Of a stretch of DNA of 7,138 bases, positions 2,172 through 6,844 are shown in pieces. Position numbers and translations under genes: made by a program. The notes beneath the pieces are model-generated. The model had not been told where the DNA came from. It did no database searches and saw only the letters and a program-made list of their open reading frames with translations. The stretch comes from Chloroflexota bacterium (GTDB lineage Bacteria > Chloroflexota > Anaerolineae > Anaerolineales > Villigracilaceae). Positions within the stretch are counted from its first letter, which is position 1, and the number at the start of each line of letters is the position of its first letter. Location of the stretch: assembly GCA_021796315.1 (NCBI GenBank), contig JAJYOH010000309.1:1-7138 (forward strand). Direction: 5' to 3'.

Positions 2172-3149
2172 TTAGGCCTTGCCCAATACCATTGCCAACA
2201 AGGCCATTCTCACATACAGACCATATTCCATCTGGCGGAAATACGCGGCGCGCGGATCGTCGTCGAAATCCGGGCTGATCTCGCCGACGCGCGGCAGCGG
2301 GTGCATGACGATCATATCCTTTTTGGCGGACTTCATGATGGCGGGATCGATCACGTATGCGCCCTTGACCTTTTCATAATCGGCGGGGTCTTCGAAGCGT
2401 TCCTTCTGGACACGCGTCACATATAGCACGTCGATTTCCGGCAGAATTTTTTCAAGCGAACTGAACTCGGCCTGTGGTATTTTCTTCGCGGCCACTTCGT
2501 CCATCACGTCTTTTGGCATGCGCAAAATATCGGGCGAAACGTAATTGAGTTTGACCTTGTAGAGCGAAAGCAAGCGCGCCAGCGAATGAACCGTGCGGCC
2601 ATATTTCAAATCGCCGAGCATCGTCACCGTGAGATTATCGAGCCGACCGATTTCTTCCATGATGGTGAACGTATCGAGCAAGGCCTGCGTCGGATGTTCG
2701 CCCACGCCGTCGCCCGCGTTGATGACGGGTTTGCGCGCCGCCTGCGCCGCAATCGCCGCCGAGCCCGTTTCGGGATGGCGCAGCACGATCACGTCGGCGT
2801 AACTTTCGAGCGTGCGGACGGTATCGGGCAGGCTCTCGCCTTTCGTCACAGACGAATACCTCACTTCATTGATCGGGATGACCGAGCCGCCGAGTCGTTC
2901 CATCGCGGCAGTGAACGATGACGATGTGCGCGTGGATGGTTCATAAAAAAGATTGGCCAGGATTTTTCCTTTGAGCAGATCGAACGTCCCGACGCGCTCG
3001 ACCATGCCGCGCATCTCGTGCGCCACGCCGAAGATGTACTCGAGGTCATCGCGCTTGAACTGCTTGACGGAAATAATGTCCTTGCCGTACCACTCGGCGT
3101 TTTTGTTTTCGCCGAAAGGCAGGTGCGGGGATGAAGATTGAGTTGGCAT
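2172..3149 (-). CDS. pyrB: Aspartate carbamoyltransferase catalytic chain
   Basis: PyrB joins carbamoyl phosphate and aspartate to carbamoyl-aspartate, the first committed pyrimidine step. The 325-residue product has the carbamoyl-phosphate site [12 protein letters not shown] (STRT at 72-75), Lys103 in [16 protein letters not shown] at 152-155, [12 protein letters not shown] at 179-190, the aspartate-side TRVQKERF at 245-252, and HPLPR at 283-287. The length is slightly above the usual 300-310, owing to a polar N-terminal extension before residue 20. The [10 protein letters not shown] and YVTRVQKER wording resembles PyrB chains that work with a regulatory PyrI, but no pyrI is in the window. 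Start: ATG 3149 with AGGAG (3158-3162) 8 nt upstream. pyrF follows after 76 nt, probably on the same transcript. The order pyrC...pyrB-pyrF on one strand suggests an ancestral operon now interrupted by the toxin-antitoxin and LuxR-like genes. Confidence 0.95.
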
Positions 3150-3345: not shown

Positions 3346-4734
3346 TTATTCCGATAAAACCCAGGGACCATAAATTGCCTGTTCCAACGCATCCATGATT
3401 ATTTTGTCAGCTTGATCTTTACTCATTCCAGAAGGCAATTTTAGATTCGAATAGAAAGAACCGATGGGGCCGCAAGTGAAATCAAGACCAGGATACAGTG
3501 GAGCAAGTCGTTGTTTGGCGCGAGCGCAATTGGCTTCCAGATTGTTTTCGGCGGGAACACGAATATTACTGATAGAGACACTCACAGGTGAGTTTCCGTA
3601 GTTACTGACGCCAACAGGAAATTCGACAATATAACAACGGTACGCGCTAGAGTAAGTACCTGGAGATTTTGGATTTTTGAGCATATATCCAGAAAGCGAG
3701 TTTTGGACATTTCCCGCTGTAAGGATCACCCCGTTCAAATTCCAATCTTGTGTGTCTGGCAGTTGAGCACAAATTTCTACATTTGTAACGGTTTCATTCT
3801 TTTGAATGTTGATTAATGTCATGGTTACGTTATTGGCTTGCGTTGAACTGCCAGTCAATTGCACATTGCCCACAGTGATTTTCAACCAGACTTCAGCGCC
3901 ATCGCCTGAAACAAATTGTCCGTTAGCGTTTTTGAGTTTATAGTGAACTTCGTAAATTCCGTCCGCATTAGGAACTGTGAAGTTGCTTGAAATCTCTACG
4001 ACTTGTCCTGGATTCACGGGATTTGATAATTTGATTTCATTTGACTCATTTAAATTATTTCCTAACGGAGCGGAATAGCTTGTCAACACTAAAGCGTAAT
4101 CTGTAGTCCAGGTGGTTGAACCATCATTTTGCAACTTCCATGTTTTCGTGAAAGTTGTGCCTTTGGCGACATTTATCCCATCAGGATAATTCTCTCCAAC
4201 AAAGTGTGCTACATCTGCTGCGGAAATCGTCGCTGTATCATTTGTAGCCGTGACCTTTGGCATTGCAGTGAAAGTCGGAACCATCACTGTTTGGGCAGAT
4301 TTCTCAATAGCGATAGTGGGAGTGATTTCTACTGGTGCGGTTGCTGTGACTGCCGACTCTGGAACGGGTGAATTGGTGATGGCAATCACGACAACTAATA
4401 CAGTTGTCAACAAGATGCCACCGACGATATATATCAAAGTTTTCATGGGAACCCTCCGAAAAACGAATTTGCTATCATTGTCGGAGGTTTCACTTCTCGT
4501 TTCAACTACAGGTTTCCCTAACTCGCCCAATCCATTGTCACCTACGGATTTCCCCAATCGTAAAACTGCCTCTGTTCTTGAACTCACATGAAGCTTTCTA
4601 TAAATATTTTTCAAATGATATTCAACAGTATGCTGAGAAACGCCAAGCATCAAGGCGATCTGCTTGTTGCTTTTGCCTTGCAATAAAAGCCTGATAACAT
4701 CCTGCTCGCGTTGACTGAAATTCTCCGTGTTCAT
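3346..4734 (-). CDS. Membrane-anchored LuxR-type HTH protein with NBR1-like Ig domain
   Basis: A 462-residue single-pass protein. Residues 6-62 are a GerE/LuxR helix-turn-helix (FSQREQDVIRLLLQGKSNKQ, then IALMLGVSQHTVEYHLKNIY), directly at the N-terminus with no receiver domain. A polar linker leads to one membrane helix at about 99-119 (TLIYIVGGILLTTVLVVVIA), then a Thr/Pro/Ala-rich stalk to about 172. Residues about 174-288 form an Ig-like fold of the NBR1 central-domain type (GTTFTKTWKLQNDGSTTW, NPGQVVEISSNFTVP, YEVHYKLKN, VSGDGAEVWLKITV), common in Chloroflexota surface proteins. Residues 290-462 are unassigned and contain four cysteines (322, 367, 403, 421). The DNA-binding end would be cytosolic and the Ig end outside, suggesting a one-component transmembrane sensor; ligand and target genes are unknown. 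Start: ATG 4734; a TTG at 4752 is also in frame, and neither has a clear Shine-Dalgarno. The gene is visibly AT-richer than pyrB, pyrF and pyrC, consistent with separate origin. Confidence 0.85.
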   Translation of the reverse strand: MNTENFSQREQDVIRLLLQGKSNKQIALMLGVSQHTVEYHLKNIYRKLHVSSRTEAVLRLGKSVGDNGLGELGKPVVETRSETSDNDSKFVFRRVPMKTLIYIVGGILLTTVLVVVIAITNSPVPESAVTATAPVEITPTIAIEKSAQTVMVPTFTAMPKVTATNDTATISAADVAHFVGENYPDGINVAKGTTFTKTWKLQNDGSTTWTTDYALVLTSYSAPLGNNLNESNEIKLSNPVNPGQVVEISSNFTVPNADGIYEVHYKLKNANGQFVSGDGAEVWLKITVGNVQLTGSSTQANNVTMTLINIQKNETVTNVEICAQLPDTQDWNLNGVILTAGNVQNSLSGYMLKNPKSPGTYSSAYRCYIVEFPVGVSNYGNSPVSVSISNIRVPAENNLEANCARAKQRLAPLYPGLDFTCGPIGSFYSNLKLPSGMSKDQADKIIMDALEQAIYGPWVLSE

Positions 4735-4748
4735 GATACAAGTGTATC
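4735..4748. promoter_or_regulatory. GATACA-AG-TGTATC palindrome abutting the luxR-like start codon
   Basis: A perfect 6-bp inverted repeat with a 2-nt centre ends on the base next to the ATG at 4734. No Shine-Dalgarno sequence fits between. It could be an operator for autoregulation by the HTH protein, or chance. Just upstream on the same side, TATTTTCTATTC (4763-4774) is nearly repeated at 4777-4788. Confidence 0.3.
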
Positions 4749-4782
4749 GCAAATCTATGAACTATTTTCTATTCACCATTTT

Positions 4783-4893
4783 CTATTCTCTCACATTCTT
4801 TCCAAAACCTTTTTCCGCCAGCACCTTGCCATCTTTGAAGGCTTCGCGTCCGCGTAAGACGACGCGCCTCACGCGCTCCTTCACCTTCCAGCC
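4783..4893 (-). pseudogene. pyrC: Detached 3' end of a second pyrC copy
   Basis: Positions 4789-4895 align without gaps to 5628-5734, the 3' end of the intact pyrC, with 15 differences in 107 bases by hand count (about 86% identity). On the minus strand the fragment reads GWKVKERVRRVVLRGREAFK then DGKVLAEKGFGKNVRE and stops at TAG 4783-4785: 36 codons, 32 identical to the PyrC C-terminus. It is cut off at its 5' side, where TAA (4894-4896) takes the place of the Glu codon. Ten of the 15 differences are silent, so the copies diverged while both were coding; the fragment was probably left by recombination with a related full-length gene rather than by decay of a local duplicate. It has no start and is presumably not expressed as protein. 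It and the intact pyrC end bracket the toxin-antitoxin pair. Confidence 0.85.
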
Positions 4894-4899
4894 TTATAA

Positions 4900-4932
4900 A
4901 GACTTCCGAAGTTTTGGAAACTTCGGAAGTCT
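4900..4932. repeat. 33-bp perfect palindrome after the PIN-toxin gene
   Basis: A 15-bp perfect stem (AGACTTCCGAAGTTT / AAACTTCGGAAGTCT) with a 3-nt loop TGG. It starts 2 nt after the toxin stop codon on the minus strand and is followed there by TTTATAA, so it may also serve as terminator for the toxin-antitoxin transcript. It lies 4 nt from the truncated edge of the pyrC fragment. Its architecture (AGAC, 7-nt stem, GTTTTGGAAAC core, 7-nt stem, GTCT) is shared by the palindrome inside pyrC at 6100-6132. Confidence 0.85.
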
Positions 4933-5621: not shown

Positions 5622-6692
5622 TTATCCTCTCACATTCTTTCCAAATCCTTTTTCCGCCAATACCTCGCCATCTTTAAAGGCTTCGCGTCCCCGCAAAACG
5701 ACGCGCGCTACGCGTCCCTTTACTTTCCAGCCTTCGAACGGAGTCCAGCCGCAGCGCGTGAATTGATTCGCGGCTTTGATTTCGTATTCGGCGTTTTCGT
5801 CCACTTCGATCCATGTCTCGGGTTGTTCGGGGAGTTTGAAAATCTTGCGCGGGTTCACATACATTTTATTGATAATGTCGTCTGTTGTCAGTCGTTTGTC
5901 GTTCATGGCCGTGAACCACAATGGTAACGCAGTTTCAAGTCCTGGGAAACCAGGCGGAGGATTGTCGGAATCTTTTTCTTCGACCGTGTGCGGAGCGTGG
6001 TCGGTGGCGAAGCAATCAATCACATCCATGTCTTGCCATAAGGCATCCACGTCTTCTTTGGTCGCGAGTCGCGGACGAACTTCTTTTCTTCCCGGCGTTA
6101 GACCTGACAGGTTTTGGAAACCTGTCAGGTCTTGAGTTAGAAACAAATGATGCGGCGCGACTTCACACGTCACTTTGATTCCTTTTTCCTTCGCGGCTTT
6201 GATGAGCAGGACTTCTTCTTTTAGAGAAATATGCGCGATATGGACGGGTCTATCGTAGATGGCGGCGAATAGAATCGCGGCGGCCATGCTTCGGTTTTCC
6301 GCGTGAACAACGATTGGATATTGCTTCGGATATTTTTCAAAGTGTGGCATCCAAAGACTCATATCATCGAGGCGGAGTTGACCGAAGGTGGAGTCGAGAT
6401 ACATCTTCAGCGCCGCGGCTTTGTCCGCGAAGGATGCGGCGATCGCGGCATTATCGGGTCCCGCACCGACGAATTGGGCGTAGTCGCAGCGCGCTTTTTC
6501 TTTGGCGGCGCTGAGGGCAAGATCGAGTGTCTCGGCGTCGAATATGGACGGCTTGGTGTTGGGCATGGCCAGGATCATGGTAACACCGCCGGCAAGGGCG
6601 GCTTGGGTGGCGGTGTCCCAATCTTCTTTGTGGGTTTGTCCAGGTTCGCGCACGTGAACGTGAGGGTCGATCAAGCCAGGGAGTTTGAGCAT
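5622..6692 (-). CDS. pyrC: Dihydroorotase, CAD-like type, with an in-frame palindrome
   Basis: PyrC reversibly cyclises carbamoyl-aspartate to dihydroorotate, between PyrB and PyrD. Of 356 residues, metal-site residues are visible as in the CAD dihydroorotase: HVH at 11-13, the likely carboxylated Lys96 in ALKMYLD, His130 in VVHAEN, His154 in HIAHIS and Asp231 in ATDHAPH. The blocks KLPGLIDPHVHVREPG, MPNT, CEVAPHHLFL, PPPGFPGLET and WTPFEG match this subgroup. The usual N-terminal small-domain strand is absent, as in some CAD-type proteins, and an in-frame TGA 12 nt upstream excludes a longer N-terminus. ATG 6692 has only a weak GGA site. Residues about 188-198 (DLTGFQNLSGL) are encoded by a 33-bp palindrome; from memory, human CAD has about five fewer residues between HHLFL and EVRP. 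Expression probably passes through the leader attenuator at 6714-6844. Confidence 0.95.
   Translation of the reverse strand: MLKLPGLIDPHVHVREPGQTHKEDWDTATQAALAGGVTMILAMPNTKPSIFDAETLDLALSAAKEKARCDYAQFVGAGPDNAAIAASFADKAAALKMYLDSTFGQLRLDDMSLWMPHFEKYPKQYPIVVHAENRSMAAAILFAAIYDRPVHIAHISLKEEVLLIKAAKEKGIKVTCEVAPHHLFLTQDLTGFQNLSGLTPGRKEVRPRLATKEDVDALWQDMDVIDCFATDHAPHTVEEKDSDNPPPGFPGLETALPLWFTAMNDKRLTTDDIINKMYVNPRKIFKLPEQPETWIEVDENAEYEIKAANQFTRCGWTPFEGWKVKGRVARVVLRGREAFKDGEVLAEKGFGKNVRG
5628..5734. repeat. pyrC 3' segment shared with 4789-4895
   Basis: Direct repeat partner of the detached pyrC end, offset by exactly 839 bp with no gaps. The two copies lie in the same orientation and enclose the PIN toxin-antitoxin pair and the 4900-4932 palindrome. 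Confidence 0.85.
6100..6132. repeat. 33-bp perfect palindrome inside pyrC
   Basis: A 15-bp perfect stem (AGACCTGACAGGTTT / AAACCTGTCAGGTCT) with TGG loop. On the coding strand it reads GACCTGACAGGTTTCCAAAA... and is translated without interruption as DLTGFQNLSGL in PyrC. Ends (AGAC/GTCT) and core (GTTTTGGAAAC) are identical to those of the palindrome at 4900-4932; the 7-bp stem segment differs but is fully complementary in each. Confidence 0.85.
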
Positions 6693-6713: not shown

Positions 6714-6738
6714 AAAAAAAAGAGCCGATGACGGCTCT
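6714..6738 (-). terminator. Intrinsic terminator in the pyrC leader (attenuator)
   Basis: On the minus strand AGAGCCG (6738-6732), loop TCAT, CGGCTCT (6727-6721) is followed by an uninterrupted T-run through 6714: a textbook Rho-independent terminator in this direction only (no T-run on the plus side). It ends 21 nt before the pyrC ATG, leaving no room for a separate promoter after it. It begins on the nucleotide after the stop codon of the leader ORF. Confidence 0.85.
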
Positions 6739-6807
6739 CTAAAAAACAAAAGAAAAGGTCGATTTGACGGGGGCAGGTTGAGGTTCCAGAAAGAAGCGGT
6801 TTCTCAT
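6739..6807 (-). CDS. Candidate pyrC leader peptide, 22 codons
   Basis: ATG 6805-6807 to TAG 6739-6741 encodes MRNRFFLEPQPAPVKSTFSF followed by VF. The last codons span a U-rich mRNA stretch (14 of 16 bases T at 6741-6756), and the stop codon abuts the terminator stem. A ribosome at the stop would cover the 5' arm of the hairpin. The start lies only 9 nt after the predicted -10 hexamer, so the mRNA would have almost no 5' untranslated region and the peptide would be made by leaderless or near-leaderless initiation; no Shine-Dalgarno is seen. The arrangement parallels the E. coli pyrBI leader peptide; function here is inferred. Confidence 0.5.
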   Translation of the reverse strand: MRNRFFLEPQPAPVKSTFSFVF

Positions 6808-6816
6808 TTCTGCCCG

Positions 6817-6844
6817 ATTCTATGCGCGGGGGTAATTCTGTCAA
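6817..6844 (-). promoter_or_regulatory. pyrC promoter (TTGACA - 16 nt - TAGAAT)
   Basis: On the minus strand a perfect -35 TTGACA (6839-6844) is spaced 16 nt from TAGAAT (6817-6822), one mismatch from the -10 consensus. Predicted transcription start is near 6809-6811. It is the best sigma70-type promoter in the window and the one upstream of the pyrC attenuator. Confidence 0.7.

Follow-up and report, generated by a model that had tools for sequence, protein, structure and literature searches.

What controls a pyrimidine operon in which a promoter, a very short open reading frame (ORF), a U-rich tract and a terminator are packed directly in front of the first gene? The locus that raises this question lies on the minus strand of a 7,138-nt stretch of contig JAJYOH010000309.1 (GCA_021796315.1) from a Chloroflexota bacterium, which was analysed whole and is called the window here. 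Read along that strand, the window holds the end of a cupin gene, the leader, pyrC, a small gene with a PIN-domain gene, a gene for a LuxR-type/Ig-like protein, pyrB and pyrF. The first gene presumed to be regulated, pyrC (5622–6692), encodes a dihydroorotase of 356 aa that matches PF01979 and TIGR00857 (6.9e-79; its 265.7 bits are slightly below the cut-off of 279). Downstream of it on the same strand, pyrB (aspartate carbamoyltransferase, 2172–3149; TIGR00670, 375 bits) and pyrF (orotidine-5'-phosphate decarboxylase, 1199–2113; TIGR02127, 249 bits) both score above cut-off.

The original prediction described the region ahead of pyrC as a pyrBI-like attenuator composed of a promoter, a 22-codon ORF, a U-tract, a TAG, a hairpin and, 21 nt further on, pyrC; each part is in place on the minus strand. 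The −35 element TTGACA (6839–6844) and the −10 element TAGAAT (6817–6822) precede a putative transcription start region, deduced from the position of the −10 box (6808–6811, 1–3 nt 5' of the leader ATG); in CGGGCAGAA, the stretch from TAGAAT to that ATG, the ATG lies 9 nt past the −10. The presumably near-leaderless ORF, MRNRFFLEPQPAPVKSTFSFVF (6739–6807), extends for 22 codons from its ATG (6807–6805) to a TAG (6741–6739). Its end coincides with the U-tract, the presumed UTP-dependent pause region (6741–6756), where the predicted 14 T in 16 bases were found, the last T being shared with the TAG. The intrinsic terminator hairpin, AGAGAGCCG-TCAT-CGGCTCTTT (6719–6740; 9 pairs, −13.2 kcal/mol), does abut the TAG as described, although the last two TAG bases can pair in the outer stem. 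A T8 tail (6714–6721) completes the terminator and is separated by 21 nt from the pyrC ATG at 6692.

Taken singly, these pieces are within chance in the window, and it is their recurrence in relatives that decides. The promoter, TTGACA-16-TAGAAT, has 11 of 12 consensus matches and is the best of 11 promoter-like hits, for which shuffled sequences give a mean of 7.0; terminator-like sites are not in excess in the window (8, shuffle mean 9.7); and the fold of the leader has a z-score of −2.0, with 7 of 200 shuffles equally stable.

A scan of genome contigs returned 80 pyrC loci with 67–82% identity (81 counting the window), nearly all labelled Chloroflexi/Chloroflexota or Anaerolineae/Anaerolineales and derived from metagenomes. 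A regular expression combining promoter, ATG, GAGAG..CTCT hairpin and T-run identified the leader unit in 46 of the 81 loci, with 47 leaders in total because L080 carries two, one before a permease gene and one before pyrC; genome G417 likewise has both. A looser scan starting from the hairpin raised the count to 47 of 81 loci by adding L062, whose −35 is TTGACG. By position, leaders stand before pyrC or a permease gene: of the 47, 26 are at most 150 nt from pyrC, 5 are separated from it by 231–680 nt that contain no permease gene, and 16 precede a permease-like ORF (454–509 codons) upstream of pyrC. This ORF belongs to Xan_ur_permease (PF00860) in 4 of 4 cases tested (3 of the 16, plus L135), and the best NCBIfam match for three tested permease ORFs is uracil permease, under the equivalog cut-off. 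In many loci pyrB and pyrF follow pyrC. Of 29 genomes with an above-cut-off pyrE, 23 carry the gene on the same strand, 3.1–8.9 kb downstream; 5 have it on a separate contig and 1 at a great distance. The cut-off for carA was exceeded in only 9 of 30 genomes.

Conservation of the ORF and U-tract before pyrC in relatives is what the original prediction had put forward as support, and it was found. It had also counted loss of these elements in relatives that keep pyrC against itself. Such loss does occur: with the DNA around each locus examined, 34 of the 81 loci have no leader, and the unit is therefore dispensable. These loci, however, have lost the hairpin as well, and six of their genomes carry a leader before a permease gene elsewhere. 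The six come from a search of the genomes behind the 35 loci in which the regular expression had found no leader; 8 of 35 had pattern matches, 6 directly before a permease gene, 1 cut by the end of the DNA (L134) and 1 by chance.

The unit is also specific on the scale of whole genomes. The pattern TTGACA-N16-TANAAT-N6,12-ATG-N55,85-GAGAG, run on the whole genomes of 44 relatives, gave 47 matches in 42 of them, and the reversed pattern gave none in the 44; 43 of the matches are known pyr leaders and 4 lie elsewhere, of which the one that was looked at, L092, is non-pyr. Across the class the pattern occurred in 45 of 396 genomes, and of 23 loci inspected (L111–L133) nine precede pyrC or a permease gene, two of them already known, and 14 are chance matches. 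A slightly stricter pattern matched 80 of 400 genomes across the order, at least three by chance (G071, G035, G726). Across the phylum 16 of 400 genomes matched, G071 again by chance; as all 16 are within the order's list, the unit looks confined to one Chloroflexota order, within the reach of a stem-based pattern. All leader-finding patterns demanded the GAGAG stem and all except the hairpin-first scans demanded the ATG. When hairpins were sought first and no ATG was demanded, 48 of 48 sense-strand hairpins from the 80 loci and the window had a promoter with an ATG 4–12 nt after it, as did 13 hairpins in pattern-chosen loci; the other 8 of the 69 hits were on the opposite strand. The same stem matched 38 times in 29 of 30 genomes, 30 times at leaders and 8 times elsewhere, so that it is largely, not wholly, leader-specific.

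Two collections were used for the measurements that follow. The main one comprises 59 leaders after removal of redundancy: the first loci together with the window supplied 46, and loci found by the pattern supplied 13. For the second set, 20 loci were re-examined (19 of 30 order-wide loci plus L247 from the phylum search), of which 19 precede pyrC or, once, a permease gene, with L216 a chance match. This yielded 16 leaders that were new and had a clear hairpin, and for 12 of these pyrC is only 55–63% identical; L219, before pyrC, was missed by the hairpin expression, and L212 and L234 repeat known ORFs.

The leader ORF is under translational selection, as judged from its stop codons and its pattern of substitution. 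Between the end of the ATG and a point 6 nt short of the stem, the 59 leaders contain 2, 38 and 39 stops in frames 0, 1 and 2, against a mean of 36.8 (sd 5.5, minimum 18) in 500 dinucleotide shuffles, and the second set contains 0, 16 and 7. Each of the 59 ORFs either stops no more than 9 nt short of the hairpin or runs into it, and in all 16 leaders of the second set the stop lies 5 nt or less before the stem or later. The close junction of stop and stem that had been expected from the window is present in 31 of the 59 leaders, whose stops lie 9 to 2 nt before the first stem base; in the other 28 the stop is at +9 or beyond, in the hairpin or past it. The ATG-to-stem distance is 65–81 nt in 53 of the 59 and 60–96 nt overall.

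The original prediction also expected the peptide to vary freely, and this was not borne out. Among 38 equal-length pairs, synonymous changes make up a fraction of 0.48 in the reading frame, against an expectation of 0.24, and of 0.16 and 0.22 in the two alternative frames; in 14 independent pairs, codons with a single change are synonymous or non-synonymous in a ratio of 43:49 in frame versus 11:90 and 21:76 out of frame. This synonymous excess indicates that the amino acids of the leader peptide are constrained too, and stretches such as RFFxD and HFFG recur. Purifying selection of this kind would be expected if the peptide itself controlled the terminator, by nascent-chain arrest or in trans. 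We consider this unlikely, since the peptide sequence varies greatly from group to group, the frame in which it ends shifts relative to the hairpin, and no common C-terminal arrest motif was seen in the peptide alignment.

The promoter places the ATG very close to the predicted 5' end of the RNA. A −35 of TTGACA is present in 58 of the 59 leaders and a −10 of TA[A/G/T]AAT in all 59 (the search demanded TANN[AT]T), the spacer is 16 in 59 of 59 where 15–17 was permitted, and the ATG lies 8–11 nt past the −10 box in every leader where 6–12 was permitted (7–12 nt in the second set). If RNA synthesis starts 6–8 nt past the −10 box, the 5' untranslated region in the window would be about 1–3 nt, and we infer a 5' end about 1–3 nt before the leader ATG in most leaders. 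L070 has no leader, and there a promoter of this type is followed after 10 nt by the ATG of pyrC itself; among the 35 loci without a regular-expression leader, TATANT occurs 5–9 nt before the pyrC ATG in 18, compared with 9 of 1548 sampled ATGs. With both of these observations, initiation near the 5' end seems normal in these bacteria.

The hexamer TATACT in particular is often found 6–7 nt before the pyrC ATG in loci in which the attenuator is not adjacent (L009, L011, L020–L022, L028, L042, L044, L045, L047, L052, L055, L062–L064 and others); pyrC in loci of this kind may be carried on a near-leaderless mRNA. According to the cited part of a survey, leaderless genes occur in 4 of 12 Chloroflexi genomes, at an average of 4.7% (PMC3160421). 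GC-rich stretches recur between the −10 box and the ATG (CACGCCGAA, TCGGCGCA, TCCGCCCGAT); they may be a sign of growth-rate control or may mark a binding site. By eye, degenerate repeats of the CTTGAAACCTGGAACCTGACAC type were seen immediately ahead of pyrC, within the 20–60 nt preceding its ATG, in L004, L012, L013, L025, L029, L030, L031 and others.

The tract before the hairpin is rich in U well beyond what terminators of these loci usually show. The 21 nt before the stem contain on average 10.4 T in the leaders (range 6–14) versus 5.2 in 185 other terminators of the same loci, and T makes up 61% of positions −20 to −10 from the stem; the tract is weak in a few leaders, the lowest having 6 T of 21. 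Codon usage points to selection of U as a nucleotide in the leader tail. Wobble T:C is 235:93 in the last eight leader codons, versus 249:320 in earlier leader codons and 2903:6107 in pyrC; the odds ratio of tail to pyrC is 5.3, with a nominal P of 2e-46 that is too small because the leaders are related and their independence is overstated, although the direction holds in the second set (wobble T:C 58:18; TTT:TTC 15:4; 9.9 T of 21).

A translated leader and terminator could instead sense the general state of translation or growth, with the U-tract serving only to keep the RNA unstructured or to slow polymerase generally. A GC-rich stretch after the −10 box is a feature of growth-rate-controlled promoters, and many leaders have one, such as CACGCCGAA and TCGGCGCA; leader structure is unremarkable as well, in that the leaders fold like their shuffles (mean z +0.2) and show no upstream pause hairpin. 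The close association with pyrimidine genes, the preference for U over C at wobble positions and the lack of a U-tract before other terminators all speak against this explanation, which we regard as improbable.

Phenylalanine is the commonest residue of the leader tails (22%) and is found in 57 of the 59, as would suit amino-acid attenuation of the pheL type, in which the ribosome stalls at Phe codons and the RNA refolds. Yet it is U that appears to be selected and not Phe: the Phe codons TTT:TTC stand at 72:28 in the leader tails versus 180:384 in pyrC, and T exceeds C at wobble positions generally. Moreover, the terminator arm has no alternative pairing and it is pyrimidine genes that follow the leader, making such a sensor very unlikely. 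The consensus letters of a polymerase pause are GG-N6-YGY, and the pause-like GG-N6-YGY-T occurs in 20 of the 59 leaders (shuffle mean 1.3, maximum 6), an excess that is only suggestive because codon constraint and relatedness confound it.

In 59 of 59 leaders the hairpin (−13.2 to −19.1 kcal/mol, mean −15.4) is accompanied by a T-run, both being part of the search pattern. Stem pair 6 is TG in 31 leaders, CG in 27 and TA in 1; covariation in the stem is nearly uninformative, since the GAGAG/CTCTC stem was in the search pattern and barely varies. No antiterminator was detected from duplex energies between the 5' arm of the terminator and the leader, which are no better than those of shuffles (mean z +0.59), and an Rfam search of the window and five more leader loci assigned no family to the leader, all hits falling below threshold.

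These results bear on regulation by PyrR, an RNA-binding protein that would control the terminator or translation of the leader, as is known in Bacillus. The operon context is right, and a Thermus pyr leader with PyrR, a leader peptide and a terminator, and without an antiterminator, was reportedly described by Van de Casteele in 1997. The Chloroflexota leaders resemble that arrangement in having a leader peptide, a terminator and no antiterminator in a non-enterobacterial lineage; the Thermus scheme depends on PyrR, whereas the Chloroflexota genomes yielded none past the cut-off. With the single model used, NF003549, weak hits arose in 43 of 44 genomes and hits above the NCBIfam cut-off in 0 of 44, compared with 6 of 14 control genomes, E. 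coli being among the controls with a match. As the window and the five further leader loci also lack an Rfam PyrR element, and no antiterminator was found, control by PyrR is highly improbable. The same strand carries the end of the cupin gene about 250 nt upstream, but the idea that the hairpin is a plain terminator for this gene, accompanied by a chance ORF, is barely credible: the promoter separates the hairpin from the cupin gene, and the unit of promoter, ORF and hairpin is conserved from locus to locus, ahead of two different first genes.

Instead, it is probable that the leader is a UTP-sensitive, ribosome-coupled attenuator of the pyrimidine operon, pyrBI-like and acting on a near-leaderless leader ORF. 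We are most confident that it is an attenuator with a translated leader, which is very likely; that UTP is its signal is likely, if a little less so. The pyrBI-like logic of the original prediction finds support in a unit conserved in 46 of the 81 loci, a stop-free frame under selection, the reach of that frame to the hairpin, the selection for U, the pyrimidine context and the lack of any sign of an antiterminator or PyrR in the searches above, and it is from these sequence features that the start site, pausing, termination, co-transcription and UTP response of the leader are predicted. RNA polymerase would start 1–3 nt before the ATG, allowing a ribosome to load at the extreme 5' end as it emerges, and would then enter the U-rich stretch, which is densest 10–20 nt before the intrinsic terminator. 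Where UTP is plentiful, polymerase would pass quickly, the ribosome would lag, the hairpin would form and transcription would stop after about 100 nt. Where UTP is low, polymerase would pause in the U-rich stretch and the ribosome would catch up; since the ORF extends as far as the hairpin, the ribosome would cover or unwind the hairpin's 5' arm, with read-through into pyrC (or permease-pyrC), pyrB, pyrF and often pyrE. The constraint on the peptide is not needed in a pure race of this kind.

A fuller version can be offered tentatively: a Chloroflexota UTP sensor that evolved independently of the enterobacteria as a race between polymerase and a leaderless-loaded ribosome, in which about a third of members may encode a GG-N6-YGY pause whose next nucleotide is U, so that binding of UTP would be the escape step, and in which the constrained peptide forms a second layer acting through ribosome speed or as a regulatory nascent chain. 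We think this complete scheme possible, though doubtful.

The UTP race is the mechanism of E. coli pyrBI, and repression without a repressor is best known from the enterobacterial pyrBI operon. In E. coli pyrL (NC_000913), the distance from ATG to stem is 87 nt, sampled windows of 21 nt contain at most 10 T and the stop lies past the hairpin. The likeness lies in a short translated ORF that runs to or through the hairpin, a U-rich tract near an intrinsic terminator, pyrimidine genes behind the leader and no need for an antiterminator. Unlike pyrL, which has GGAGG before its ATG, the Chloroflexota leader, with its predicted near-leaderless start, would leave no room for a Shine-Dalgarno sequence before the ATG. 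It also differs from pyrBI in heading pyrC or permease-pyrC with pyrB, pyrF and often pyrE, in an ATG-to-stem distance of mostly 65–81 nt, in a constrained peptide sequence and, in the searches made, in being found in one order only. In the passages cited for pyrBI, coupling across the leader prevents the terminator (PMC5021804, PMC4824070). The portion cited for Sinorhizobium meliloti trpL describes an attenuator RNA, rnTrpL, whose 5' end is the leader ATG and which is a small leaderless mRNA (PMC7298713); that leader serves trp genes, whereas the Chloroflexota leader, predicted to be near-leaderless, precedes pyrimidine genes. Cysteine-rich uORFs of mycobacteria are small ORFs proposed as attenuation leaders in the cited section of a paper on leaderless transcripts (PMC4633059), which concerns cysteine codons as the sensor, another phylum and other genes. 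A search of the open-licence literature, covering titles and the starts of abstracts, gave no report of a Chloroflexota attenuator of such a kind. What appears to be new is the combination, together with the lineage and the gene set, while a leaderless leader ORF and a UTP race are each already known singly.

If the UTP-sensitive attenuator is real, repressor-free repression would extend to an order in a different phylum, where it would govern uracil-type uptake as well as pyrC, pyrB, pyrF and often pyrE, and where pyrBI-like control probably arose by convergence. It would also mean that attenuation can operate on near-leaderless translation, with the race between polymerase and ribosome shortened to about 70 nt, and transcription-translation coupling in Chloroflexota would become directly testable. 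The 75 leaders (59 plus 16) would offer a natural set of variants in pausing, ribosome reach and terminator geometry.

Other features of the window lie within and behind pyrC. A perfect palindrome, GACCTGACAGGTTTTGGAAACCTGTCAGGTC, is found in frame within pyrC (6101–6131), and a second palindrome sharing its core lies at 4901–4931. L002, L003 and L017 have a similar pyrC palindrome at approximately the same codon with the loop orientation reversed, and L001 and L005 have different sequence there; its appearance is that of a small palindromic element lying in frame. The 3' end of pyrC (5623–5734) is present again as a 112-bp copy, 86% identical, at 4784–4895, 839 bp downstream; the PIN-domain gene and its small partner lie between the two copies, as if this cassette had been inserted with duplication of the end of pyrC. 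The same pair of genes lies behind pyrC in L001 (97% and 93%). Between pyrC and pyrB, minus-strand positions 3346–4752 encode the protein that combines an Ig-like domain (PF16158) with a LuxR-type HTH; used as a query, it matched in only 3 of the 80 other loci (L001, L057 and L059) with 32–58% identity.
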